In this document: in pieces, positions 14,339-51,917 of the stretch
Position numbering within the stretch: the stretch's first letter is position 1
Layout of the letters: the number at the start of each line of letters is the position of its first letter
Position numbers and translations under genes: made by a program
The notes under the pieces: model-generated
The model's database searches: none
The model's input: the letters and a program-made list of their open reading frames with translations, nothing else
Told to the model about the DNA's origin: nothing
Virus record (IMG/VR): IMGVR_UViG_3300035212_003113
Coordinates: 186,001-250,000 of that record
Direction: 5' to 3' (one strand)
Origin: a virus
Length of the DNA: 64,000 nt

Positions 14339-14737
14339 ATGAGCAACCCGAAGCAGCCAAAGAAGATGTCCACAGAAGAGTGGATTCAATTACTTCTTGA
14401 TAACCAAGACGCTTGGAAAGATAGGCTAGCTTACGTAGATGAAGAAGCCCGGCGCATCTTCTTTAGCTCTTCGGGTCCTCCTCTAGACTCCAACCTACAA
14501 TTCGTAAGCGTTTACTTTTACGCTACTTATATGTTTAACTTCATATCTTCTCTCGTGGCAGACCCGGATATTGGAGTTCCAAAAGAAATACTAGAATACC
14601 ATTCTGAGCTAGCTGAAGAGCTGGCTCAAAGCGCTTACAAGGATTCCACTTCGCACCTGAAGCGCAAGCAGAAACTGTTAGATGGAGATGACATAGATCC
14701 AGAACTACTGGTAACAATGAAAAAAGGTGACGCATGA
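14339..14737 (+). CDS. Small acidic helical hypothetical protein
   Basis: Not recognised; 132 residues, mainly helical, Lys-rich at the N-terminus and acidic at the C-terminus. A strong CGAGG SD precedes ATG 14339. The stop overlaps the start of the lipoprotein protease gene. Confidence 0.65.
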   Translation: MSNPKQPKKMSTEEWIQLLLDNQDAWKDRLAYVDEEARRIFFSSSGPPLDSNLQFVSVYFYATYMFNFISSLVADPDIGVPKEILEYHSELAEELAQSAYKDSTSHLKRKQKLLDGDDIDPELLVTMKKGDA

Positions 14738-15432
14738 GGATACTGCTGGCTTTTTTACTTTCTTGCTTAATCGCTTGCCAACCAAAAAGCCCGCCGCCTC
14801 CTCTAGAAGTATCTGCTGAGAAAAATATATGGAAAATGCAGACCCTCACTTCACAATGCACTTCCTTCCAGATCGATAAAGAGCTGATTGTCACCGCAGC
14901 CCACTGCGCGCACTCTCAGCTCTTTTTATTTAAAAATGGACCAGATACCCTTGAAGGCAAGCTGGTGGGTCTTTCAGAAGAATCAGACATTGCAGTGTTT
15001 TTTGTTCCAGGCGCTGATCGCCCAGGATTCCCAGTAGGCGAGAATCCGCCGGCTCCAGGCGAAGAGCTGGTGGCAATCGGCTTCCCTGCTCGCGTTACAG
15101 ATAGCTACGTCTTTGTGCCGGTGCGAATTGCAGGACTTGCTCGCTCTCCTGATGGCAGCATATTTGCCCGAACTATGGGTCCGTCTGTGTGGCCAGGCAT
15201 GAGCGGCGGTCCACTGGTCAATTCGCGTGGCGAAGTTGTCGGCGTAGTCTCGAGCACTGGCCAAATATTCTTCGGCCCAGAAAACGATCCAACAAGCCTG
15301 ATGCGCGAAGCTGGTAACTTCTCAGTGGATCTAATGAAAACAATAACTGATATAATTGCTGCTGCGAATCGTCGTGCCTATGAGAACGGTGAATCAGAGG
15401 AAGAGCCAGAAACTTCCGGCACTAGCGAATAA
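14734..15432 (+). CDS. Trypsin-like serine protease, predicted lipoprotein
   Basis: 232 residues. The N-terminus is a lipoprotein signal: MR, a hydrophobic stretch, then the lipobox LIAC with Cys 15 as the predicted lipid-bearing residue. A chymotrypsin-fold protease follows with the full triad: His 57 in TAAHC, Asp 85 in ESDIAVF and Ser 157 in GMSGGPL. The tail is acidic and disordered. It is predicted to sit on the periplasmic side of a membrane, where it could process host or phage envelope proteins. It is the last gene of the replication operon, just before a terminator. A secreted lipoprotein protease is rare in phages. Confidence 0.85.
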   Translation: MRILLAFLLSCLIACQPKSPPPPLEVSAEKNIWKMQTLTSQCTSFQIDKELIVTAAHCAHSQLFLFKNGPDTLEGKLVGLSEESDIAVFFVPGADRPGFPVGENPPAPGEELVAIGFPARVTDSYVFVPVRIAGLARSPDGSIFARTMGPSVWPGMSGGPLVNSRGEVVGVVSSTGQIFFGPENDPTSLMREAGNFSVDLMKTITDIIAAANRRAYENGESEEEPETSGTSE

Positions 15433-15434
15433 AG

Positions 15435-15460
15435 AAACGGGGCCGCGAGGCCCCGTTTTT
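15435..15460 (+). terminator. Bidirectional intrinsic terminator
   Basis: AAACGGGGCC / GGCCCCGTTT stem with GCGA loop and T-runs on both strands. It serves the protease gene from the left and the convergent aminomutase gene, whose stop codon lies in the T-tract, from the right. Confidence 0.9.
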
Positions 15461-16850
15461 ATTTAATCACGCCCGCCTTTGCGGCAGCAATCATCTCATG
15501 TCGTCTACCTGGATCTGCCCAGTCTGCTTGTGCAGACGACCCTAGTGATACCAGTGGATCATAGTAGCAAAAAACTTCACCGGGCTTTACGCTGGGCGCC
15601 GCATATACCGAGATGCCGCTGCTCCGGTCGTACGCCTCGAACGAGTGCGCATCGCGCTTGCCGCCCCCTCCAGGAGCGTCTACAACGAACACAGGCGTGT
15701 TGAAGCCGGCAGTACTGCCTCGCACCCCCTTCTCGATCTCAAGGGCCGTAGAAACCGCTGTACGCAAGTCCTCCGTGCCGCGCACCAAGTCGTGCACGTA
15801 TACATAATAAGGATGCACATTAATCCAGCTCAGCCGCTTTACCAGCATCTTCATAGTTTCTATGCTATCGTTCACGCCGCGCTGCAGTACGCTCTGGTTA
15901 CGGACAGTGACTCCGCGCTCCATCAGCAGATTGCACGCCCGTGCACTGATTCCTGTTATTTCCGCAGGATGATTAAAGTGCGTATGAATTACCACTTCCT
16001 TGTGCAGCTGGCGACCGCGAGCCGCAATATCGCAGATCGCATCAGTCCATGCTGTATCGGTCAGCACCTTCATTGGCTGGATTGCAAGCCCTTTTGTAGC
16101 GTAGCGCCACCGCCGTACATGCGGAATGGCCAGTAACCGCTCTCCAATAGCACGCACTTGATCGGCGCGCAGCCGGTAGCTGTCTCCGCCACTCACAACG
16201 ACATCCTCTACCTCGGGCCGCGATTCGATGTACTGGAAGATCCTCGACCAGCGCTCCTCGTCGGCCTTCAGACTGATCTTTTCTACCATATCTGTATCCA
16301 GGCCGACCGCATAACTGCGCGTACAAAAACGGCAATAGACCGGGCATGTATCAAGTGCTAGAAATAGTACTTTATCTGCATAGCGATGCGTCAACCCTGG
16401 CACCGGGCTGTCGTCCTGCTCGTGTAGCGAGTCCAGAGTCAACATGGGATGATCGGGCTCTAATTCACTGCCTACTGGCAGGAATTGCCGGCGAATTGGA
16501 TCAGTATACGGGCTTGACCAGTCGATCAGGCTCATTAGATACGGGCTTATGCGAACGGCCATGGGAGCAGCGGCAAATCCAGCTTGCACATCTGCAATGA
16601 AATCTTCTGACACAAGGTCGCGAACCGCGACTACTAGCCGGTCTGCTGAAGTTATCGCATTTTTTTCCTGCCAGGTGTGGCTTAGGAAAGCCCCCTCGTC
16701 GATCTCGCTCCACGCCGGAATCTTCCTCCAAAACTCGTCCGTGCGCAAGTTGCGGTGATCCAGGGCTGCGGCCGGAGCTGGCGGCTTAAGACTGTTAACG
16801 CTGTCAAGAATTTGTAGTTTGCTCATGGCTACTATTACAAGATTGCCCAT
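15459..16850 (-). CDS. Lysine 2,3-aminomutase-like radical SAM enzyme
   Basis: 463 residues of the KamA family, which uses a 4Fe-4S cluster, S-adenosylmethionine and PLP to move an amino group from C2 to C3 (lysine to beta-lysine). All key residues of the characterised enzyme are present: cluster Cys 169, 173 and 176 in CPVYCRFCTR, carboxylate-binding Arg 178, Asp 354 (YVHDL) and Asp 391 (VVDAPGGGG) that bind the substrate's second amino group, and PLP-linked Lys 398. The SPVPGLTHRY and HTHFNHP motifs are also kept. Length matches KamA, not the shorter EF-P enzyme EpmB. An internal start at 16826 is possible; neither start has a strong SD. It is reversed relative to its left neighbours. Purpose in a phage is unclear. 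Confidence 0.9.
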   Translation of the reverse strand: MGNLVIVAMSKLQILDSVNSLKPPAPAAALDHRNLRTDEFWRKIPAWSEIDEGAFLSHTWQEKNAITSADRLVVAVRDLVSEDFIADVQAGFAAAPMAVRISPYLMSLIDWSSPYTDPIRRQFLPVGSELEPDHPMLTLDSLHEQDDSPVPGLTHRYADKVLFLALDTCPVYCRFCTRSYAVGLDTDMVEKISLKADEERWSRIFQYIESRPEVEDVVVSGGDSYRLRADQVRAIGERLLAIPHVRRWRYATKGLAIQPMKVLTDTAWTDAICDIAARGRQLHKEVVIHTHFNHPAEITGISARACNLLMERGVTVRNQSVLQRGVNDSIETMKMLVKRLSWINVHPYYVYVHDLVRGTEDLRTAVSTALEIEKGVRGSTAGFNTPVFVVDAPGGGGKRDAHSFEAYDRSSGISVYAAPSVKPGEVFCYYDPLVSLGSSAQADWADPGRRHEMIAAAKAGVIK

Positions 16851-16883
16851 TCATGCGACCTTGAGGCTGGTAGTAGCGTGCAA

Positions 16884-16910
16884 CAAAAAACCCCGCTTTT
16901 TCAGCGGGGT
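16884..16910 (-). terminator. Intrinsic terminator (minus strand)
   Basis: ACCCCGCT / AGCGGGGT stem; on the minus strand it is followed by six Ts. It ends the LamG/cadherin-like surface protein gene ahead of the aminomutase gene. Confidence 0.9.
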
Positions 16911-16935
16911 CTCTTATTAAGATTACATCACCCTA

Positions 16936-19227
16936 TCAGCTGCCTGAAGTCGGATGCGAACCCGGAAGGCCAAAGTTCGCTGTATAGCGAGCAACGCCTT
17001 TGGTTATGCGGAAATCATCTATATGCCCAAAATAGCCAGAAGTACCTGGATTTGTTGTGGAGACTGAGCCAATTACAAGTGGTTCGCCGTTAGATGGAAT
17101 TGTGCCACTTGCCGTACCAATTGCTGCAGAAGTGCCATTGACGTATAGGGTAAACGTGCCTCCACTCCTAACAAATGCCAGGTGCGTCCAAGTGTTTGCA
17201 GGGATAATATCACCAGTCGCCGCGCTTACGGCCCAACTGGTACCATTAGTTGTGGCATAGTAATACGCACGGTACGCATTAAGTGACGAGTTGAACTGCA
17301 AGAATCCTATAACACCTCCGTAAATACTAAGCGACTGTCTTTTACCAAACAGGTATTTTTGCGTCCCATTTGCAAGGCCGTTAATAGGATTAATCCACAT
17401 TTCAATTGTATAGTTTCCAGATCCAAATTCAAGACTCTGGCTTGAAGGAACAGATAGATAATCTCCAACGCCATCAAAATATAAACTCGAGCCGCCATAT
17501 CTGCTTTGTGCCGTGCTAATAAAGGCATTGCCGACTCGTGATACCGCAAAGGCATTGGCGCTGCTGTCAACAAACGACGTGCTGCCATTTGCCCCATCGG
17601 CCTTCATTAGCAGCGAGACGCTTGAGAAGTACGGGTCCGAGACTGGGTGGGAGCCCGGAGGCGTAAAGTTCGCAGTGTATCGGGCGATACCTTTGGTCAC
17701 ACGCAAGTCGTCTATGTAGCCGTTGAGGTCGTAGGTGTAGCCGGGGACAGATGTTCTGCCGACGAGCTGGGCGTGCGTTGTAGTTACATTCTGACTCGAC
17801 AGTGTTGTCGAGCCTATCAGTGCCCCGTTGAGAAAAAATCGCGTCAGAGTCCCTTGCCGAGATACTGCTGCGTGGTGCCACTGGTTTTGGGCAACCGTGG
17901 CAGGAGCGTTGAGCCCGCCCCCGCTACCGGACTGGTAGTTCTCAAAGCCTAGCCCAGTTCCGGTGGTTGACGAGTCGCCTAGTATGTAAAAGTTGTAGCC
18001 CATGGAGGATCCTGAAGGTGCAAAACATGAAAATATGGTCGCGATTCGCTGGTTGCCCGCACTCAGCGGCGAGTTTCCAGCGATAAAAAACCAGCACTCT
18101 ATGGTGAAGTTGCCAGTCCCGAAGCTGAACAGCGCGGAGTTTGCAATAGATAGGTTGTCCCCGCTGCCATCAAAATATGCACTGGATCCGCCGAACTTAC
18201 TCTGTGCGGTTCTAATCGCAGCATTACCAAGCCTTGAGATGGCAAGATTATTAGCGCTGCTATCGACAAACGACGTGCTGTTATTTGCCCCGTCAGCCTT
18301 AAGTAATAGCGAGACGTTTGCGAAGGATGCGTCCACAGCGTCCGCAACCGTAAGCGTGACCGTAGCTGCAGCAGAATTCGCCGTGCCATCGTTGACCCTG
18401 AAGGTAAAGCTGTCTGAGCCGGAATAGCCGCTATTCGGAGTATACGTCAGGCTTGGAGCCGTACCGGTCAAGGAGCCGTTGGCAGGATTCGTCACAACCG
18501 TGTACGTCAATGCGCTGCCTTCGACATCGCTGCCCGCCAGAGTTATTGCAGTTGCGGTGTCACGGTTCACCGATACGCTCTGGGCAGTAGCCGCAGGCGT
18601 GTCATTGACGGCAGTTACTGTGATGCTAACGGTAGCAGTAGAAGAGTTCACGTACCCGTCGTTAACGCGGAACGTAAAGCTGTCCGAGCCGTTGTAGTTC
18701 GCATTGGGCGTATAGACCAGGTTCGGGGCGTTACCCGTCAGCACGCCATTGCTTGGGCCGGCGACTACTGCGTAGGTCAGCGGATTTCCGTCGATATCAC
18801 TGCCTGTCAGGGTAATAGCAACGTAGCCGTCTTCGAGCACGCTGACGCTCTGGGCAGTAGCCTCAGGCGTGTCATTAACCGCAGTTACTGTTATTGAAAC
18901 AGTAGCCACGGCCGAATCTGCTGTACCATCATTAGCTTTGAACGTAAAGCTGTCCGAGCCGTTGTAGTTTGCGTTAGGCGTATAAGTCAGGCTCGGAGCG
19001 GAGCCACTTAGGACGCCATTAGTCGGGCCGTCAACTACTGTATAGGTCAGTATATCGCCATTTGCATCACTGGCAGTGAGCACGATGTTGGCCGCAGCAT
19101 CCTCAGATGTCGAGATGTTCTGGCCTACAACTACGGGAGCCACAGGGCCGGTACCAGGTAGAACTGTATCCGAAGTCTGAGAGGTCGATAGTATAGCTGG
19201 ACTTAATAAACCAAAATTACTGGGCAT
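16936..19227 (-). CDS. Large surface protein: three cadherin-like/Ig-like repeats plus two LamG/concanavalin-like domains
   Basis: 763 residues from ATG 19227, chosen because AGGGAG lies just upstream (a longer frame from 19338 has no SD). After a short N-terminus it has three tandem repeats of about 95 residues, each with the YTPN-YNGSDSFTFRVNDG pattern of bacterial cadherin-like repeats. Two LamG-type jelly-roll domains follow, each with SLLLKADGAN-type openings and FDGSGDNLSI-like strands, and each ending in a DDLRVTKGIARYT-type motif. Such proteins bind carbohydrates or calcium; a virion-exposed adhesin or host-binding protein is likely. No signal peptide. It is a single-gene minus-strand unit. 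Confidence 0.8.
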   Translation of the reverse strand: MPSNFGLLSPAILSTSQTSDTVLPGTGPVAPVVVGQNISTSEDAAANIVLTASDANGDILTYTVVDGPTNGVLSGSAPSLTYTPNANYNGSDSFTFKANDGTADSAVATVSITVTAVNDTPEATAQSVSVLEDGYVAITLTGSDIDGNPLTYAVVAGPSNGVLTGNAPNLVYTPNANYNGSDSFTFRVNDGYVNSSTATVSITVTAVNDTPAATAQSVSVNRDTATAITLAGSDVEGSALTYTVVTNPANGSLTGTAPSLTYTPNSGYSGSDSFTFRVNDGTANSAAATVTLTVADAVDASFANVSLLLKADGANNSTSFVDSSANNLAISRLGNAAIRTAQSKFGGSSAYFDGSGDNLSIANSALFSFGTGNFTIECWFFIAGNSPLSAGNQRIATIFSCFAPSGSSMGYNFYILGDSSTTGTGLGFENYQSGSGGGLNAPATVAQNQWHHAAVSRQGTLTRFFLNGALIGSTTLSSQNVTTTHAQLVGRTSVPGYTYDLNGYIDDLRVTKGIARYTANFTPPGSHPVSDPYFSSVSLLMKADGANGSTSFVDSSANAFAVSRVGNAFISTAQSRYGGSSLYFDGVGDYLSVPSSQSLEFGSGNYTIEMWINPINGLANGTQKYLFGKRQSLSIYGGVIGFLQFNSSLNAYRAYYYATTNGTSWAVSAATGDIIPANTWTHLAFVRSGGTFTLYVNGTSAAIGTASGTIPSNGEPLVIGSVSTTNPGTSGYFGHIDDFRITKGVARYTANFGLPGSHPTSGS

Positions 19228-19281
19228 TAATTCTCCCTGGATCACTGGCCTTGCACGAATTTTGCTTGGCCATACTGCAGT

Positions 19282-19291
19282 ATATTTAGTA
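19282..19291. promoter_or_regulatory. Shared AT-rich element in divergent intergenic region (copy 1)
   Basis: ATATTTAGTA occurs here and at 21712-21721, in both cases between a minus-strand gene and a plus-strand gene that diverge. Read on the minus strand (TACTAAATAT) it lies 55 and 40 bases before the start codons, a distance suitable for a promoter. It loosely resembles T4-type late promoters (TATAAATA). Two copies are weak evidence. Confidence 0.3.
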
Positions 19292-19305
19292 CCGTCGGCA
19301 GCTCC

Positions 19306-19325
19306 CGGCCGGGGTACCCCGGCCG
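19306..19325. promoter_or_regulatory. Perfect 20-bp GC-rich palindrome between divergent genes
   Basis: Bases 19306-19325 are fully self-complementary, centred on GGGGTACCCC. They lie between the start of the surface-protein gene (19227, minus) and the NUDIX gene (19377, plus). It could be an operator for a dimeric regulator or, as RNA, a hairpin without a T-run in either leader. Confidence 0.4.
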
Positions 19326-19376
19326 CAAAACCTATCATTGCAGGCGCATAGAGGTAATGTCAAAAGCCGGAGCACC

Positions 19377-19793
19377 ATGATTTTTTCGCTTTTCAAACGC
19401 GCCAGCCCAGCGGTAGCAGCCGGAGCAGTCATAATAGCAAACAACACTGGCAGGATACTGCTACAACTACGCGCACCATACCTCAGTGCCGGCGGAAAAT
19501 GGAGCCTGGTTGGCGGCGGAGTCGAGCCCGGAGAATCACCAGAACGCGCCATGTTTCGCGAAATCGCCGAAGAAACAGGCGCCGCATTAGAAGGCAAACC
19601 TCAGTACCTGCACACGTATGAGAAAAAAGACTTCAAATATCACAGCTACCTGCTGCGCATTCCAGAAGAGTTCGAACCAGTAGGCAACCAGGAGTCTGCC
19701 GAGCACCGGTGGGTAGATATTGACGACCTGCCCGAACCGCTTCATCCCGGGATGAAGCCCCTAATACCCATAATCCTTCTCGCAATAAAATAA
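19377..19793 (+). CDS. NUDIX hydrolase
   Basis: 138 residues from ATG 19377, preceded by a GGAG SD. The NUDIX box is complete at residues 47-69 (Gly-x5-Glu-x7-REIAEETGA). The family cleaves nucleoside diphosphates linked to another group; substrates range from oxidised dNTPs to ADP-ribose and RNA caps, and the sequence does not decide which. It is flanked by its own leader and terminator and stands as an isolated plus-strand gene within a reversed block. Confidence 0.9.
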   Translation: MIFSLFKRASPAVAAGAVIIANNTGRILLQLRAPYLSAGGKWSLVGGGVEPGESPERAMFREIAEETGAALEGKPQYLHTYEKKDFKYHSYLLRIPEEFEPVGNQESAEHRWVDIDDLPEPLHPGMKPLIPIILLAIK

Positions 19794-21330: not shown

Positions 21331-21672
21331 TCACTCTTCTACCGCAGCCAGCCCACGCAGTACACTATCAACTGCGTCTGCTTCGTTGGCCAATCCAGCT
21401 GCATCGAGCTCGTTCGCGACCTTTACGAGGCTAGTGAGCAGGTCGGCTTTACGAGCATTTAGGGCAAACTGAATCTGGCCTAATAGTTCTCGCTCGGCCT
21501 TTGTCAACTTCTTGTCGCCCTCTGCGCGCGCCTGGAGCTCCTTCTTTTTCTTTTTTAGAAGTGCGGTTGGGATCTTCTTGTCCGCAGGCACCTTGAGCTT
21601 TTTATGCAGCTCGCCCTTTTCCTCAAGATTAACGGCTCCCTGCATCCACTTGTTTTTTTTCTTAGCAGCCAC
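21331..21672 (-). CDS. Lys-rich protein with recurrent helical-hairpin motif
   Basis: 113 residues. The N-terminal 70 residues are very Lys-rich with a GELHKKL...KKIP segment that recurs, by my recollection, in small phage proteins. The C-terminus holds the helical motif VANELDAAGLANEADAVDSV found in many other proteins of this window (24605, 35602, 41972, 43483). Function unknown; a basic, helical virion or core-associated protein is plausible. Reversed relative to the virion operon, with its own terminator and a decayed duplicate at 20498-20641. Confidence 0.7.
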   Translation of the reverse strand: MAAKKKNKWMQGAVNLEEKGELHKKLKVPADKKIPTALLKKKKKELQARAEGDKKLTKAERELLGQIQFALNARKADLLTSLVKVANELDAAGLANEADAVDSVLRGLAAVEE

Positions 21673-23110: not shown

Positions 23111-24602
23111 TATTAAGCACCAGCTTGATGCTTTTATTAAGGCTGCCTCTGCAGCGATTGTCGAAGACTCCAAAGATTATTTTATATCGGATGTACTCGG
23201 CCGCATTGAGACTGCCTATGGTCGTACAAAAGATGCCAGCCTGCATGCGCTTCACAACATCGTGAAGTCGCACAAGGACAGCGTAATCATCAGCCGCGCC
23301 GAACTGCGCAGCGGTTGGGAGCGCGTTGCTAGCCTTGGGCGTGCAGATGTGGTTCGCGACGAGATCGGCGACCTCCTGGGTGCCGCTGCTCCGGACACTG
23401 GTGTTGTGCGCAGCTCGGAAAAGACCGCAATGAATGCAGGTGGCGCTGCCATTGATATCTCGGTTGACGAGTCTGCCAAGTACGCAGCGCTATTTGGTGA
23501 GCACGTCGCCACCCGCTCTATCCGCAGTGGTGCCGATGCAGTGTCTGCCGAAATTCGCGACTATGGTCTTGACGCCAAGCTTACGCTGGCTGCCCAGGAT
23601 TCGCGCTTTGCTGTATTCGCAGCAGAGCTAAGCGATGGCAAGCGCACCGCCAGTGCACTGATTCCTGTTGAAGTAAAAAACGGCAACGTCCTGCTCCCGT
23701 CGGTATTCTTCGGCTCCACCTTTTCTGAATTTAATGCAGACAATCTCAACAAGTGGGCATCCGCTGGTGGTGCCGCATCGGTATCTGCCGTAGGCCTTCT
23801 GGATCATTTGAATAATCTTGCTGGTCCAGCGCTGGTCGAGGCCGGCAAGGCAGAGTGGGACGCCGGGATTGGCATTGCTGGCGGTACAGGCGTTGACCTT
23901 GGCCAGGCCGCTTCGCCTGTCCTAGCTAACGCAGAAGTTCCGGCCGAGCTCACTGCGGCTGCCCGTGATCTGGGTGGCACTGATTTCGAGCAGATCTTTA
24001 AAGAGGCTACTGTCAAGTGCGGCCAGGAGAAGCTTGCATCTGCTCGCCAGATGCTCGCCAATGAGCTGCGCTTTGCAAACGTTCGCCATGATAAGATTGT
24101 AGTCGACAGCGAGCTGGAGAACGGCATTCGCCTTGGCACGCATGTCCGCACGGCTGCTGGCAAACAGTACATAACCGTCCCAGTAGAATTTGATGGCAAG
24201 AGCGTACTGCTCCCCGGCTTCTTCCAGGCCGGCAACCGCGTACTTGAATTCTCGGATCACGCTCTGCACTCTGTTGCAGCAGATGGCGAGACGTCATTCC
24301 GGTCAATTGCAAGCAGCATGCGCACTGCTTCATTCTCTGACCTCTACAAAGTAGTCATCAAGAATGCTCAGTTTGGCAACCTAGCTGGTGCCGAAGAGGC
24401 GATGGCAGTTATCCTAGAAGAACATGGTGAAGAGCTCCATCGTCAGGCATTCCAGGATATGATCTCTGTCATTCAGAAGAGCGCCACCATGGAGCGTAAC
24501 GATTTCGACAAGTACGCAGCAGACCTGGCCGACGGCGGCAGCGAGACGGCTAATTATGTCTCTAACAAGGTAAACCTGGCCATGTTTGGCCTTCTGGATT
24601 GA
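23103..24602 (+). CDS. Probable virion structural protein with internal repeat
   Basis: 499 residues, no known family. Two related blocks are visible: about 155-220 (IPVEVKNGNVLLPSVFFG) and about 330-390 (VPVEFDGKSVLLPGFFQAG), each a beta-rich domain in front of an Asn/His helix, suggesting internal duplication. The N- and C-terminal parts are helical and the end carries a charged ADLADGG segment related to the recurrent helical motif. Coding bias toward C- and G-ending codons suggests high expression, as for a virion protein. Confidence 0.7.
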   Translation: MSDIKHQLDAFIKAASAAIVEDSKDYFISDVLGRIETAYGRTKDASLHALHNIVKSHKDSVIISRAELRSGWERVASLGRADVVRDEIGDLLGAAAPDTGVVRSSEKTAMNAGGAAIDISVDESAKYAALFGEHVATRSIRSGADAVSAEIRDYGLDAKLTLAAQDSRFAVFAAELSDGKRTASALIPVEVKNGNVLLPSVFFGSTFSEFNADNLNKWASAGGAASVSAVGLLDHLNNLAGPALVEAGKAEWDAGIGIAGGTGVDLGQAASPVLANAEVPAELTAAARDLGGTDFEQIFKEATVKCGQEKLASARQMLANELRFANVRHDKIVVDSELENGIRLGTHVRTAAGKQYITVPVEFDGKSVLLPGFFQAGNRVLEFSDHALHSVAADGETSFRSIASSMRTASFSDLYKVVIKNAQFGNLAGAEEAMAVILEEHGEELHRQAFQDMISVIQKSATMERNDFDKYAADLADGGSETANYVSNKVNLAMFGLLD

Positions 24603-24604
24603 TT

Positions 24605-25129
24605 ATGCTTAAAATCGCAAGTATAGAAAAAGAAATCACAGAACTAGATGGTGCTGGTAGCGACGAGAAAACTCGTGCTGCCGCAGCTCTTGATTTTGCA
24701 GCATACGATACGGATGATCTGCGTCGCGTAGCTGCACTTGTAGTGGGCTTTGCCGATGCATTTGACGCAGACGGCCACAAGACTGCTGCAGATGCACTTG
24801 ATCGCGTTCTGAATAAGTTCGCTGCCTCGCCAGAAGCATTCTGGGATCCGCCAAAGCGCCGTCCTATGGACCTGGTGCCGCCAGTACGCTCTTCCCTGGG
24901 GGACATTGGACACAGTCTCAGTACGAGACACTCGCCCGATCTTCCTGGTGTCCAGCTCGTACGCGTTTCAGATGGCGTATACCGCGATCCAGTAACCAAC
25001 AAGACATATGACTTTCATCGTGGCTTTGTGCTGGATGACGGCACAAAATACGTCGGAGGCTCTGTATCGGCCCAGACGCCGGCCGGAAACGAGAAGTTTA
25101 GGCCACTGAAGCAGCAAATAGACTACTGA
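24605..25129 (+). CDS. Protein with recurrent helical-hairpin motif
   Basis: 174 residues from ATG 24605, which lies 3 bases after the previous stop; a TTG at 24599 overlaps that stop. Residues about 38-70 hold the recurrent motif (ALVVGFADAFDADGHKTAADAL). The C-terminal half is Pro-rich then beta-rich (YRDPVTNKTYDFHRGF). Not otherwise recognised; likely a minor virion or assembly protein. A short imperfect hairpin (25135-25158) follows. Confidence 0.65.
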   Translation: MLKIASIEKEITELDGAGSDEKTRAAAALDFAAYDTDDLRRVAALVVGFADAFDADGHKTAADALDRVLNKFAASPEAFWDPPKRRPMDLVPPVRSSLGDIGHSLSTRHSPDLPGVQLVRVSDGVYRDPVTNKTYDFHRGFVLDDGTKYVGGSVSAQTPAGNEKFRPLKQQIDY

Positions 25130-28861: not shown

Positions 28862-29720
28862 CGAACTCCTAAATATAATCGATGACGACCTCATGCTTGA
28901 GGAGGATGGCGACTCTGGTGCAGACATCCATGTGATTCCAGGGTCAGGGCTTTCTGTCGTTGACCTAAAGGAGCCCGAGCGCGAGACCGATTGGGAAACC
29001 GATGGCGATCATGATAAATTTCTAGTCTATCTAGCCGATAAAATGAAGTCAATTCCGCGCCACCGCGGTCATACGACCGTAGGTGTAGAGCGCGCAATAT
29101 CCTATCTCAAGAAGCTTGATGGTGAGATTAGCAAGGCAATCCGCTCGGACGAGAAGAATATTATTGACGAGGAAGAGGCTGAGGGAATCCGTGATCAGAT
29201 TTATGATTATGTTGATCGCCTAGAAGAGGCTCTTCAGAATCTTAGTGACAAGAAGCACCGCCGCCGCAGCTCCAACGTGAAGATTTCTTCCTCGGTCTAC
29301 TCCCGCATCGGGCCAAATGGCGACCCAATGTATTATATTCGTGCAGAGAATGATGGCGAGGAGTCGCTGCTGCAGGTTGCGCTCGAGGAGCCTAGCGACC
29401 TACAGGTACGTGCCTATATTGAGTGGGAGGAGGGCAAGTTTAAGAAAGAGGCCTCCTCTGCTCGCATTGTCCTCATGGCCGATCCGTTTCTCCACGAGGT
29501 AACGAACATCATCATTCGCTCCCACGTAACCTATGGTCGCAACATCGAGTCAGTTTATCGTGATCTGGCTAAGAAGTATACCTTCACAAACCGTGATCAT
29601 CTCGCAGTCCACTCCCTCCTTCGGGAAAAGGGCTTGCTGATAGATCGTGATCTAAGTCGCCTAGGCGAGGAAGTTGAGATTGGCACCCAGAGTGTTGGCG
29701 CCAAATCTTATCCAGCCTGA
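28854..29720 (+). CDS. Acidic hypothetical protein
   Basis: 289 residues from ATG 28854, which has GGAG six bases upstream. The first 45 residues are very acidic; a long helical region (60-145) follows, then a beta-rich part with KISSSVYSR and a C-terminal helical domain with a possible HTH (VYRDLAKKYTFTNRDHL). Not recognised; it may be a packaging or regulatory protein. Confidence 0.65.
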   Translation: MNDELLNIIDDDLMLEEDGDSGADIHVIPGSGLSVVDLKEPERETDWETDGDHDKFLVYLADKMKSIPRHRGHTTVGVERAISYLKKLDGEISKAIRSDEKNIIDEEEAEGIRDQIYDYVDRLEEALQNLSDKKHRRRSSNVKISSSVYSRIGPNGDPMYYIRAENDGEESLLQVALEEPSDLQVRAYIEWEEGKFKKEASSARIVLMADPFLHEVTNIIIRSHVTYGRNIESVYRDLAKKYTFTNRDHLAVHSLLREKGLLIDRDLSRLGEEVEIGTQSVGAKSYPA

Positions 29721-30290: not shown

Positions 30291-32150
30291 ATGGTAAGCC
30301 CTAAGAAAATAAAAGCTTTAACACCGAAAGACATTTTTGATGAAATCAAGAAAGATATCTCAAAAATAGATCCAGTTAGCTTTGCAGAAAATCATTTGAC
30401 AATAGACGGAAAGCCATTCGACTTATCGGGCTCGGGCTGGAAGTACATGGCGGAAATCTATCGGATGATATCTGCTCAGGTAGAGAATAAAGAGGCGCGC
30501 CCAATTGTTCTACTGAAGGGACGTCAGGTCGGTGCAACCATCATGGCAGGGGTGCTCAGCCTACACATGGGTAGCTCTGGCCTATATGGTATTGAATCCG
30601 GCAAACCCCCGATCCGAGTCATGCATGTTTTTCCTGATCTGAAGCGCTGCGGCGTGTATGCAAAGGATATTCTTGCAAGTCTAATTAGCGGTGCTAAAGA
30701 GAATTATATCTCAAGGCGTGCGCTTAAGGTTGCAAAGGTCGTAGATCTGGAGGACACGCAGACCCAGAAGAATTTTGTCGGCATGAACAAGATTCGTATC
30801 GACTCCATAGGGAAGTCAGGCGACCGTATTCGCGGTAGCACGCAGGATGTTTTGCTTTATGATGAAATCCAAGACATGGGGCGCACTGCCATAGAGAATA
30901 CTCTCAAGGTTCTAACTGCAACCCCATACGGTGCTCCTACTAAGGGGGTACAGGTATTCTTTGGAACGCCTAAGCATGCAGGCTCATACTTCTGGTCTCT
31001 CTGGGAAGACTCTGATCAGCGATTTTATCAACTGCGCTGCAAGCATTGCGACCACCATTTCTTTCTCTATAATCTTGAAAATGATGACTGGAACGAGACT
31101 TGGGTAAAAGAGCAACTAGTAAAGTGTCCTTCCTGCCTAAAGACTCAGGACAAGAGAGAGGCAGTAGACCTGGGAAGGTGGGTCGCAACTAAGCCGTTTA
31201 ATGCAAAGGGCGAGCCGCAGAAATTCGTAGGATATCATTTTAACATGATGCTTAGCCCTCTCTTCACAAAAGAGAATGTGCTTGAGTACTGGCCGCAGCA
31301 TAATAAAAATGCATCCGAGCGGGCATGGAGAAACGAGACCAAGGGGCAATTTTACTCTGCTAGCGAAGTACCGCTTACCTTGGAAGAGGTTTATGCAAAT
31401 GCTCTCGACGAGAGTCGCGGCGTTGCAAAAAGTATATCCTCTCCAGCCGGCAAGAGTTACTTCCTTGGGATGGACTGGGGTGAGAAGGTTGAATCTGATT
31501 CAGACCTAGAGGCGAAACGCGGCAAATCTTTCACCTGTGCTGTCATACTATCAGTGGATCACACAGGCGTTCTCACTATAGAGAATGCGGTTCGCCTAAA
31601 AAAGAATGACCCGGATTACAAGATGAATGTTGTCCGCAAACTAATGTCTGATTTTCACATAGATCAGGCGGCAGCAGACTTTTATTACGGCAACGACTTT
31701 GTTCGACTGGTTCAGCATAACGAGGGCCTAAAGGATAAATTCTTGGGCTGCACAAATCTCAGTAACTCTAAGCGAGCTTTCTCTTATGATGAGAAAGACC
31801 TAATGGTAGGCGTGAACAAGGACCAGGTCCTTGATGAGATATTTGCTCTATTTAAGAGAGGGCGTATAAAAATACCGGCCAAAGGCGACTCACTAGAGCT
31901 ACTGAGTTGGCTAGTTGATCATATTACGTCCATGGAAACACACACCAAGACAAAAGACGGCATTGTGCTAAAAACATATAAAAAGGGCGTAATACAGAAC
32001 GACGGATTAATGGCACTAATGTACGCATATACAGCGTACAAATTCATGGTAACTCGCAAATTCAGCGAATTTGCAGTCGAGGGTGTAAATAAAAAACGCC
32101 AAGAAGAGGTAGTTGTTCCAGTTGTGGGCTACATTCCGCGCATGCACTGA
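30291..32150 (+). CDS. Terminase large subunit
   Basis: 619 residues from ATG 30291 (TGGAG SD; an earlier ATG at 30261 sits in the terminator). The packaging motor ATPase shows a Walker A-like KGRQVGAT at 76-83 and Walker B VLLYDE at 187-192. A four-Cys zinc segment (CKHC and CPSC, about 248-285) is inserted before the nuclease. The RNase H-type nuclease begins at FLGMDWGEK (about 399) with further acidic residues in ADFYYGND and NDGLMALMY. It drives DNA into the prohead and cuts it. Portal follows 8 bases after the stop. Confidence 0.93.
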   Translation: MVSPKKIKALTPKDIFDEIKKDISKIDPVSFAENHLTIDGKPFDLSGSGWKYMAEIYRMISAQVENKEARPIVLLKGRQVGATIMAGVLSLHMGSSGLYGIESGKPPIRVMHVFPDLKRCGVYAKDILASLISGAKENYISRRALKVAKVVDLEDTQTQKNFVGMNKIRIDSIGKSGDRIRGSTQDVLLYDEIQDMGRTAIENTLKVLTATPYGAPTKGVQVFFGTPKHAGSYFWSLWEDSDQRFYQLRCKHCDHHFFLYNLENDDWNETWVKEQLVKCPSCLKTQDKREAVDLGRWVATKPFNAKGEPQKFVGYHFNMMLSPLFTKENVLEYWPQHNKNASERAWRNETKGQFYSASEVPLTLEEVYANALDESRGVAKSISSPAGKSYFLGMDWGEKVESDSDLEAKRGKSFTCAVILSVDHTGVLTIENAVRLKKNDPDYKMNVVRKLMSDFHIDQAAADFYYGNDFVRLVQHNEGLKDKFLGCTNLSNSKRAFSYDEKDLMVGVNKDQVLDEIFALFKRGRIKIPAKGDSLELLSWLVDHITSMETHTKTKDGIVLKTYKKGVIQNDGLMALMYAYTAYKFMVTRKFSEFAVEGVNKKRQEEVVVPVVGYIPRMH

Positions 32151-35601: not shown

Positions 35602-36495
35602 ATGCCAAAGTTCCTTTCTAAACGAGAAGAAAAGACCTGGAAAAAGGCCAAGTCTGCTTTTAAGAAGCAGAAGGGCCGAGCTCCGGGAAAAAAAGATTGG
35701 CCGCTAGTGATGCATATTTTCCAGGGCATGGAAAAGCGTGCAGTGAACATAGTTATTAAGCCGTACGAAATTTTTGTAAAAGAAGGCCTCGACCTGGTTG
35801 AACAGGTCTTTGGTGCTGGCTATTTCTCTGGCGTAAGTACCATTGTTGTGCAGCCGCACCAGACGCATCACTATGGAGAAGTCATTTCTGACGATCCAGA
35901 GACAATATACATATCGGCAGACAGGATAGAGCAGGAGTTTGCGCAGCATCCGTTAGAGAGGGCGTTTCAAATGGCCTCTACTCTTGTTCACGAAATGGGA
36001 CACATTAAATCTGGATTCAAGGGCGGAGAGGGCCCGGCCGAGGCCGAGGAGCATCGTTTTGCTCAGGTATTTAAGGAAAAGATTAAGTCAAATCCTGAGG
36101 CATTCAAGAAGTTCGATAAGAAATCCGTACTGCACGCCGACTTGGTTCGCCTCGCCAATGATGCAGATCTAGATGGTCACGTTGCGGCGGCCGACTTCTT
36201 AGATTCTGCTTTGCACAAAAAGGCAGATTCAACTGCAGATGTTGAGCAGATAATCCAAGGGATTATTGCACTTATCCGATACATGGTTAGCCGTGTATCA
36301 GATGAGAACAAGCAGAGCTTCAAAAACAGCCTTTTGCTAAAAATACGTCAGATATCCCCAGAGCTGTCTCAGAAAAGGAAGAACCCTTCTGCTGGCATAG
36401 GTGCCGTTTTTGGTCTTCTGAAGAACTTGATGGCAGGATTAGATCCTGCTCAGATAGGGTATATAGTTGGGCAGATTGCTTCGAGGGCAGCATGA
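35602..36495 (+). CDS. Zinc metalloprotease-like protein (HEMGH motif)
   Basis: 297 residues. The N-terminal 45 residues are Lys-rich and helical. Residues 128-150 hold a zinc-protease signature: TLVHEMGH (His 130, Glu 131, His 134) followed by an acidic stretch AEAEEHRF whose Glu may be the third ligand. The recurrent helical motif is at 178-210 (LVRLANDADLDGHVAAADFL). The last 90 residues are helical. It could process a virion protein or act on the host envelope. No signal peptide. Confidence 0.75.
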   Translation: MPKFLSKREEKTWKKAKSAFKKQKGRAPGKKDWPLVMHIFQGMEKRAVNIVIKPYEIFVKEGLDLVEQVFGAGYFSGVSTIVVQPHQTHHYGEVISDDPETIYISADRIEQEFAQHPLERAFQMASTLVHEMGHIKSGFKGGEGPAEAEEHRFAQVFKEKIKSNPEAFKKFDKKSVLHADLVRLANDADLDGHVAAADFLDSALHKKADSTADVEQIIQGIIALIRYMVSRVSDENKQSFKNSLLLKIRQISPELSQKRKNPSAGIGAVFGLLKNLMAGLDPAQIGYIVGQIASRAA

Positions 36496-49907: not shown

Positions 49908-51917
49908 ATGCCATATGTTTGTGATGTTCGTAGAGATAACAAGTTAACGGTCATAGAGGTAGATGGGCGTCTGTATATCGAAAGTCAAGAGTACACCCCA
50001 ACAAATCTTGCTCCAATTGCTTTTTCACAGGGCCCTACTACGTGGCCCCCCGCTGCATCGAGTGCCTCTGGTAGATTTCCTGCTCAACAGCTATCCCTTT
50101 CACGAGTATATTCTCGCGGCTACACCGGTCTTTACCCATTTACTGATACAGATGGCGAGGCCTATGACACAACTCGTACGATGTGCGGACTGAGCGTACT
50201 TGGTCCAGTTGTCTATTCTTCGGCTTACGAGAGGTTCTATTGCTGGGGCAATAGCTCGTCTGCAAACAACGCCGTATCGTCATTTGACGATTCATTTAGA
50301 ATGGTTTCTGGTAGCCTTGGGACAATAGGTGGCACTTATTCTGTTTATGGCTTCTTTTTGCCTTCACAGAATAACAGATGGTTTGCCATAGCGCCTCATG
50401 GGCCAGGAATCGGAGCTGATGGAACTAGCGCTCTGACTGCAGCCACGGTAGGGTCTTTGCTGGAAAGCGGCGTAGTGTCTACCAATTCAGCATCGAGCTG
50501 GTGGCATCAGCTACATGTTCCCTACCTCGGTACCGATTGGCTGGTATCAGTTCTATCTCCTTGGCAGAATGGATTTAGTTCCGTGGTAGCATATAACGAC
50601 GTTAGAATTGCTTATTATAATCGCAATACAGGGGCTGGTACTGACCTCGGTATATGGCTGGACGTTGCCACTACGTTTCTGCCGAGTGCCGGGCTGTCCG
50701 CATTCTCAACGCTCGGGTGCTCTCCCAGTAATCACATAAGGACGAGCACTGATGAAGTTTATTTCTATTTCCCTATTCTTAGTAGTACCAATGAGACAAC
50801 AACTGGTCTTCCTGGCTTTAAGGTAGCCATCGGCACGATCAGCGGGTTAAATTCCACCCCTACTCGTACGCCGATCAGTACTGCCTATACAATAAGTGCA
50901 GTCGATACCGTAGCCAATACCATTACGACAAGTGCGGATGCTCCGAACTTTTCAGTTGTGCGCTTTACTGCAACAGGAGTAGGAGCGGCTGTTCCGCCGC
51001 CACTTGAGACTGGGCGCGACTACTGGACGATCAGACAGTCGGCCAATATAAGCAAGATCGCAACGACCTATCAAAATGCGGTCGATGGCTACTCTGTAGA
51101 TCTTACTGGTGCTGGCGCCGGAACTCGCGTGGCCACTGCATTTGAATTCCTGACGCTAGATGTCAATTCGATTTCATCAGGTGGAGCTGCAGTCACAAAC
51201 AGGAACGCAATTCCAGGCACTATTACTCGTATGTGGGTATTCGAGGATGCCGGCATCAAATACCTATGCATGGGCGTCTCTGAAGGCGGCACCCGAGCGA
51301 CGCTTAACTCCAGCGTCATGAATCTTTATTTGTGGCGTCTAGATAGCAAGCGCCAGGCAACATTCCTGCAGAAGGTCACGGCAGGCAGCGCTGGTCGCGT
51401 AAGAAGCTTCTTTACGCTTGATGAGGCGCAGAAGCGGATAGCCATGATTTACGATGATCGCATAATGTTCTACCAGTGGAACCCATCTACAAACTGGACC
51501 TTTCAGTCAACACAGGATGTGCAGGTGCAGGACGTAGGTGTGGATACGCTTGGTCGCACATGGGTAACAAACCGCGGAACATATGCTGGTCCAATGGCAG
51601 GTATTCCGGCTAACCAGCAGCAACTGTATGTGTTTGAGCCATCTGGCGCTGCGGCAAACATAGTGGTTTCATTTGCGCAGAATGCTTATACGTACAGCGG
51701 GACCCCTGTTGCCTCAAATATAATCGTAAATGCCTATGACACAACTGGCGCCCGCGTCGCACTTGGCGTAACGCTTACTCGCGACTCTACGAATTTCTCA
51801 TTTACTGCCGACGCACCGTCAGCATCAGTAGTTACGAGTACTTCGGCCGATACTCTTGTGCCGATCTCTATATTCTCTACCGGATTGCTTTCCGTACTTG
51901 CTGTGCCAGGAACATGA
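49908..51917 (+). CDS. Large beta-rich virion protein, possible fibre or adhesin
   Basis: 669 residues, ACGGAG SD. Beta-rich throughout, with many Ser/Thr/Gly and aromatic residues and irregular repeats suggestive of a propeller or beta-solenoid. Its C-terminal 90 residues look like an Ig-type fold (NIVVSFAQNAYTYSGTPVAS). No family recognised; a surface-exposed tail protein is likely. It overlaps the next gene by 4 bases. Confidence 0.65.
   Translation: MPYVCDVRRDNKLTVIEVDGRLYIESQEYTPTNLAPIAFSQGPTTWPPAASSASGRFPAQQLSLSRVYSRGYTGLYPFTDTDGEAYDTTRTMCGLSVLGPVVYSSAYERFYCWGNSSSANNAVSSFDDSFRMVSGSLGTIGGTYSVYGFFLPSQNNRWFAIAPHGPGIGADGTSALTAATVGSLLESGVVSTNSASSWWHQLHVPYLGTDWLVSVLSPWQNGFSSVVAYNDVRIAYYNRNTGAGTDLGIWLDVATTFLPSAGLSAFSTLGCSPSNHIRTSTDEVYFYFPILSSTNETTTGLPGFKVAIGTISGLNSTPTRTPISTAYTISAVDTVANTITTSADAPNFSVVRFTATGVGAAVPPPLETGRDYWTIRQSANISKIATTYQNAVDGYSVDLTGAGAGTRVATAFEFLTLDVNSISSGGAAVTNRNAIPGTITRMWVFEDAGIKYLCMGVSEGGTRATLNSSVMNLYLWRLDSKRQATFLQKVTAGSAGRVRSFFTLDEAQKRIAMIYDDRIMFYQWNPSTNWTFQSTQDVQVQDVGVDTLGRTWVTNRGTYAGPMAGIPANQQQLYVFEPSGAAANIVVSFAQNAYTYSGTPVASNIIVNAYDTTGARVALGVTLTRDSTNFSFTADAPSASVVTSTSADTLVPISIFSTGLLSVLAVPGT

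Follow-up and report, generated by a model that had tools for sequence, protein, structure and literature searches.

The gene kamA lies in the middle of a large virus genome and is predicted to encode a lysine 2,3-aminomutase, which raises the questions of whether the enzyme works and of what use it would be to a phage. The window is the whole stretch of DNA that was analysed, 64,000 nucleotides corresponding to positions 186001-250000 of a 371,675-bp virus record. The gene and its surroundings within the window are as follows:

14734-15432, plus strand: trypsin-like/HtrA-like protease of 232 amino acids, convergent with kamA; 53-54% identity in related phages
15435-15458, minus strand: intrinsic-terminator-like hairpin (a pattern match), immediately 3' of the kamA stop codon
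15459-16850, minus strand: kamA, a lysine 2,3-aminomutase-type radical SAM/PLP enzyme of 463 amino acids
16890-16910, minus strand: hairpin followed by TTTTTT on the minus strand, a probable terminator that separates kamA from the minus-strand gene upstream of it
16936-19338, minus strand: secreted-type protein of 800 amino acids with tandem-95 repeats, a neighbour of kamA
19338-19793, plus strand: Nudix hydrolase, also a neighbour

The kamA start codon may be at 16850 or at 16826 (Met9); Met9 corresponds to a methionine that is conserved across related phages.

The first-pass annotation had described the product as a phage-encoded radical SAM/PLP enzyme of the KamA family, and this was borne out by profile searches, by comparison with a solved structure and by the phage nature of the genome. 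The product scored 234.9 bits against TIGR00238 (the KamA family), above the cut-off of 199.2. It fell below the cut-offs of the models for the AblA equivalog (TIGR03820; 256.7 bits, cut-off 525.4), the EpmB equivalog (TIGR03821; 158.3 bits, cut-off 369.3), glutamate 2,3-aminomutase (TIGR04368; 210.2 bits, cut-off 650) and arginine 2,3-aminomutase (TIGR04468; 206.9 bits, cut-off 600), the first of these being the reason that the enzyme was not filed as AblA. A sequence search of the PDB returned a sole relative, Clostridium subterminale KamA (2A5H; 238.6 bits, E = 1e-69), and PHROGs held no family matching the product. An AlphaFold model built with 46 aligned homologs had a mean pLDDT of 90.7 and a pTM of 0.90. 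Foldseek matched the model to 2A5H with an E-value of 1.6e-31, against 2.1e-5 for the next solved structure; among predicted viral structures it found distant radical SAM proteins only.

The clostridial enzyme is about 35% identical to the window enzyme and shares its fold, although the latter has a longer N-terminus and a different C-terminal region and is encoded by a phage. Alignment of the two located the CxxxCxxC cluster cysteines at C169, C173 and C176 (C125, C129 and C132 of 2A5H), the PLP lysine at K398 (K337), the carboxylate-binding arginine at R178 (R134), the substrate aspartate pair at D354 and D391 (D293 and D330) and a conserved glutamine at Q319 (Q258). In 2A5H, Asp293 and Asp330 bind the side-chain amine of lysine and Arg134 binds its carboxylate. 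The catalytic and substrate-binding residues did not vary in any of the 28 phage or 78 bacterial sequences of the subfamily described below. The earlier statement that the cluster cysteines, the PLP lysine and both aspartates are intact therefore agrees with the 2A5H alignment, and the intact residues, the family and the fold together support the accompanying suggestion that the enzyme is probably active.

One position departs from the clostridial enzyme: Arg116 of 2A5H is replaced by K160 in the window enzyme, and a lysine is present here in all 28 phage sequences and in 71 of the 78 bacterial ones. This substitution, the separation of the subfamily from characterised AblA and a LAM_C match that covers just 24 residues of the C-terminal part could indicate an aminomutase that acts on something other than free lysine. 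Plasmid-borne relatives from Klebsiella and Rhizobium also point that way: the clusters around them look biosynthetic and include a tRNA-ligase-like protein, aminotransferases or a polyketide synthase. However, the subfamily never varies at the two aspartates that bind the lysine amine in 2A5H, and cellular members adjoin enzymes for beta-lysine or its products, so that another substrate is considered improbable. On the Klebsiella plasmid, pKPN-8c6e (L100, 7986-12121), KamA is 47% identical to the window enzyme, and its gene is in one operon with those for an MFS transporter and a class I tRNA-ligase-like protein; the set may be a small biosynthetic cluster.

The source virus is a jumbo tailed phage. 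The record carries a 127-bp direct terminal repeat, which indicates that the genome (371.5 kb, 51% G+C) is circularly complete, and it encodes a terminase, DnaE-type polymerase, primase, RecA-like protein, DnaB, RNR, gyrase, UvdE, IMPDH, DNA ligase and RNA ligase. For the terminase and the polymerase, the phage collection offered only remote relatives (25-33% identity). A second IMG/VR contig matches 17.4 kb around kamA at 99.99% identity and kamA occupies the same site in two diverged phages, so the locus is not an assembly chimera. Lon protease, Cpn60 chaperonin and a TubZ/PhuZ-like tubulin are encoded at record positions 134540-136960, 139026-140774 and 317857-319203, respectively, and two trigger-factor-like proteins at 93346-94743 and 186853-188112. 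The view that kamA is out of place among virion and replication genes needs qualifying: it is a cellular-type metabolic gene, but the same genome also holds Lon, Cpn60, the trigger factors, IMPDH and RNR, and 28 phage copies of the enzyme exist.

The anatomy of the locus was then considered together with the possibility that kamA is a host gene picked up by chance, in transit and without function. The gene is on the minus strand within a plus-strand region, and its third-position G+C falls within the upper 13% of the genome's genes, both of which would suit a passenger. The hairpin at 15435-15458 sits between kamA and the convergent plus-strand protease gene that ends at 15432; with seven terminator pattern matches in the region against 5.0 expected, this match is weak alone, but it lies exactly at the gene ends. 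The 16890-16910 stem was listed on the plus strand in the pattern search. The simplest reading of the flanking terminators is that kamA may form a one-gene transcription unit, and its neighbours are in keeping with the earlier remark that no partner gene adjoins it.

In the two diverged phages (L003 and L004) the kamA products are 92% and 91% identical to the window enzyme. The identity of kamA exceeds that of the adjoining phage genes, most of which are 53-74% identical, with the RecA-like gene at 88-90%. The dN/dS of kamA is 0.088 and 0.051 against L003 and L004, and 0.035 between L003 and L004. As the values of 0.05-0.09 indicate, kamA is under strong purifying selection. L004 lacks the 800-aa gene beside kamA and has retained kamA itself. 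The dS to both phages is lower for kamA, the 800-aa gene and the Nudix gene (window positions 15459-19793) than for most flanking genes, which suggests that this segment may have been swapped between related phages, and a recent exchange of this kind would also be compatible with a gene in transit. Nevertheless, the selection test largely refutes a non-functional passenger, as do the higher identity of kamA and the catalytic residues that are intact in every one of the phage copies; such a passenger is very unlikely. As a metabolic gene of cellular type that lies in a verified phage genome (with a terminase) and is kept under selection, kamA answers to the definition of a phage auxiliary metabolic gene.

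The distribution of the enzyme among phages was determined by scanning IMG/VR with the subfamily alignment, which yielded 32 loci. The tree included 28 distinct phage sequences, counting the window copy, to which the others are 58-93% identical. Their neighbourhoods differ, and include UvdE, 5'-3' exonuclease, tubulin, RecA-like and phosphatidylserine decarboxylase genes, for which reason no conserved operon partner could be named across phages. On one phage contig (L053, 3331-5743) kamA overlaps the end of the phosphatidylserine decarboxylase gene, a homolog of which is also found in L040.

A scan of cellular genomes found at least 585 relatives, the best 80 of which are 56-70% identical to the phage enzyme and come mostly from Myxococcota, followed by Eremiobacterota, Verrucomicrobiota, Gemmatimonadota and others. 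The first-pass annotation had called for a tree with the EpmB family. A quick tree with some long branches placed the references for both EpmB and AblA, and the remaining phage KamA types, outside the group that contains the window enzyme. The enzyme belongs to a separate KamA subfamily that is widely distributed, in Myxococcota and in other phyla. A more careful tree resolved the phage copies into three clades, all supported at 100/99 or better; these are nested in a myxococcal-rich clade (100/99) that also contains four bacterial MAG genes. The KamA proteins of Myxococcota (Sorangium, Labilithrix, Nannocystis and MAGs) reach 70% identity, and in the tree the phage copies fall among them; unlike the phage genes, theirs are chromosomal, and some of the genomes also have kdd elsewhere.

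A single clade of all phage copies was rejected (AU p = 0.0075); for this to mean several transfers, L102, L103, L109 and L114 must be bacterial. By eye, the flanks of L102 and L103 look chromosomal (ABC transporter, EutN-like, Ppx-like and polyphosphate-kinase-like genes); the bacterial status of L109 and L114 is less certain. Because phage copies are interleaved with myxococcal genes, the enzyme gene has probably been transferred more than once between myxococcal-type bacteria and phages. Either repeated capture by phages from one bacterial lineage or movement in both directions could account for the pattern. The tree also points to a host of the Myxococcota kind, and a MopE-type metal-binding motif found in one of the phage proteins is a weak hint in the same direction, motifs of this type being linked with Myxococcota.

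The reaction catalysed by the subfamily was sought in the gene neighbourhoods of its cellular members. At ten Eremiobacterota-type loci, kamA has directly upstream of it a gene homologous to that for L-erythro-3,5-diaminohexanoate dehydrogenase (kdd), identified by phmmer apart from one of the ten loci that was tested with NF052381 (229.5 bits, cut-off 200). At four further loci, from MAGs of Bacteroidota, Marinimicrobia and Calditrichota, kamA adjoins or is near ablB, the gene for beta-lysine N-acetyltransferase; L174 (332 bits) and L179 (278 bits) exceed the cut-off of 205, and L158 and L180 score just below it. Both contexts use beta-lysine, and they support the conversion of free L-lysine to L-beta-lysine. 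The AblA/AblB pathway is thus similar in the neighbours of these subfamily members, but differs in that the window enzyme is below the AblA cut-off and the phage genome is without ablB. AblB was found neither here nor in 21 mostly partial kamA-bearing phage records, and a phage-borne kdd partner gave no match. As there is no ablB on the phage, any downstream step must be the host's.

The survey of 25 whole bacterial genomes that hold the phage-type enzyme found kdd above its cut-off in 9 and ablB above 180 bits in 6, two of which exceed the cut-off. EpmA was above its cut-off in 16, including L102 and L103, the genomes nearest to the phage copies; neither of these two has a kdd match, and L103 alone has an ablB-like match, just under the cut-off. 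The prevalence of EpmA bears on the EF-P route raised in the first-pass annotation, taken here as a replacement or supplement of EpmB: host EpmA would attach the phage-made beta-lysine to EF-P and so tune how proline-rich phage proteins are translated. The KamA family includes EpmB, which has the same radical SAM/PLP core. However, the window enzyme is only 28-29% identical to two EpmB references, both of which have Glu in place of Asp at the D330 position, and its EpmB score is far from the cut-off. A genome-wide search for epmA- and efp-like genes found none, and neither EF-P nor EpmA was detected in 21 related phage records. In addition, EpmB makes (R)-beta-lysine and KamA-type enzymes make (S)-beta-lysine.

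A second KamA paralog is present in 18 of the 25 genomes and scores 220-277 bits against EpmB, higher than the phage-type enzyme (157-183 bits) though also under the cut-off. When twelve of these second paralogs were compared by BLAST, all gave better scores with AblA than with EpmB, so any assignment of their role is tentative. By these scores, the phage seems to have taken the less EpmB-like of two bacterial KamA paralogs. A role as EpmB was therefore set aside as the main reading, on the score, the D330 residue, the lack of EpmA and EF-P matches and the more EpmB-like paralogs elsewhere, and it is judged a slender prospect.

The earlier suggestion of DNA-base modification can be widened to a DNA-base or small-molecule conjugation pathway in which beta-lysine or another amine is ligated to a nucleotide or peptide; a different phage KamA speaks for it. 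This protein, 33-36% identical to the window enzyme, is encoded in a conserved operon of Voja-6-like Pseudomonas phages and the Vibrio phages GR7B and GR11A (phages of about 200 kb), together with an ATP-grasp-like ligase, an acyltransferase-like protein and, in the Vibrio phage, queC. Within our subfamily, kamA of the Myxococcota MAG L114 abuts a QueD/PTPS gene. Nonetheless, the Voja-6/GR7B proteins group with AblA, across the tree from the window enzyme, BLAST and phmmer found no homolog of any of their partner genes in the present genome, and kamA stands alone. Furthermore, among about 60 ORFs of the genome scanned with Pfam or NCBIfam, none was for a base-modification enzyme such as thymidylate synthase or 5-hmU kinase. 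There is accordingly little to recommend conjugation for this phage. Thymidine hypermodification like that of phage M6 was also unsupported: the genes for it (dUMP hydroxymethylase, 5-hmU kinase, transferase) were absent from the roughly 60 ORFs scanned, and no M6-like phage was among the KamA matches listed from 50,697 phage records.

In Voja-6 (L006, 620-6957) and GR7B (L007, 1-7454), KamA is the last gene of the conserved cassette, directly upstream of topoisomerase genes. The cassette also contains methyltransferase-like genes in Voja-6, and queC copies and a GNAT gene in GR7B, and it looks like a beta-lysine conjugation pathway. The Vibrio phage KamA is already annotated as lysine 2,3-aminomutase in GenBank.

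The best explanation for these observations is that the window gene probably encodes a working L-lysine 2,3-aminomutase and is a host-derived auxiliary metabolic gene. From the family and the conserved residues, a [4Fe-4S] cluster and S-adenosylmethionine would generate a 5'-deoxyadenosyl radical, and PLP would shift the amino group of lysine from the alpha carbon to carbon 3, with L-beta-lysine as the product. The substrate would be the host's free lysine pool. The gene would have been acquired from bacteria of the Myxococcota kind, a direction that we infer from the tree, is kept by the selection seen in its dN/dS, and would be expressed as its own unit, as the terminators imply. Host enzymes might then use beta-lysine as the precursor of the solute N-epsilon-acetyl-beta-lysine or as an entry to lysine catabolism. 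This last step, in which the product enters host pathways, is proposed solely from the neighbours of cellular relatives and is tentative. It is more doubtful still that several jumbo phage lineages independently took and kept this myxobacterial-type enzyme because beta-lysine itself serves the phage, for example as a conjugate on DNA, lipid or protein or through altered host physiology, a role that would be new to viruses.

Auxiliary metabolic genes are well known in phages, and the literature searched held no report of a lysine 2,3-aminomutase in phages. Repeated capture and strong purifying selection in at least three clades of large phages suggest that making beta-lysine, or removing lysine, is of importance in infection, and the position of the clade suggests Myxococcota-like hosts. 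The finding would gain novelty if DNA, lipid or protein, whether of phage or host, were shown to receive the beta-lysine.

Two further features of the genome were observed. Outside the window, between 0.5 and 77 kb of the record, iterated hmmsearch found a 39-member paralogous family of small ORFs, mostly of 80-150 amino acids (for example 29096-29386, 31323-31607 and 51343-51627), many of which start MKL[DE]x[YW]. Comparison with the flanks from other phages and from bacteria turned up no relatives, and the family is a large lineage-specific expansion. In addition, 14 proteins of differing length have a common N-terminal region, some 35 residues long, that resembles LxKIAxELDxxGxxxxADxLDxL. 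Their genes are located at window positions 21331-21672 (minus strand), 24599-25129 (plus) and 35602-36495 (plus) and at 11 other places in the record, and the shared stretch could be a sorting or processing tag.
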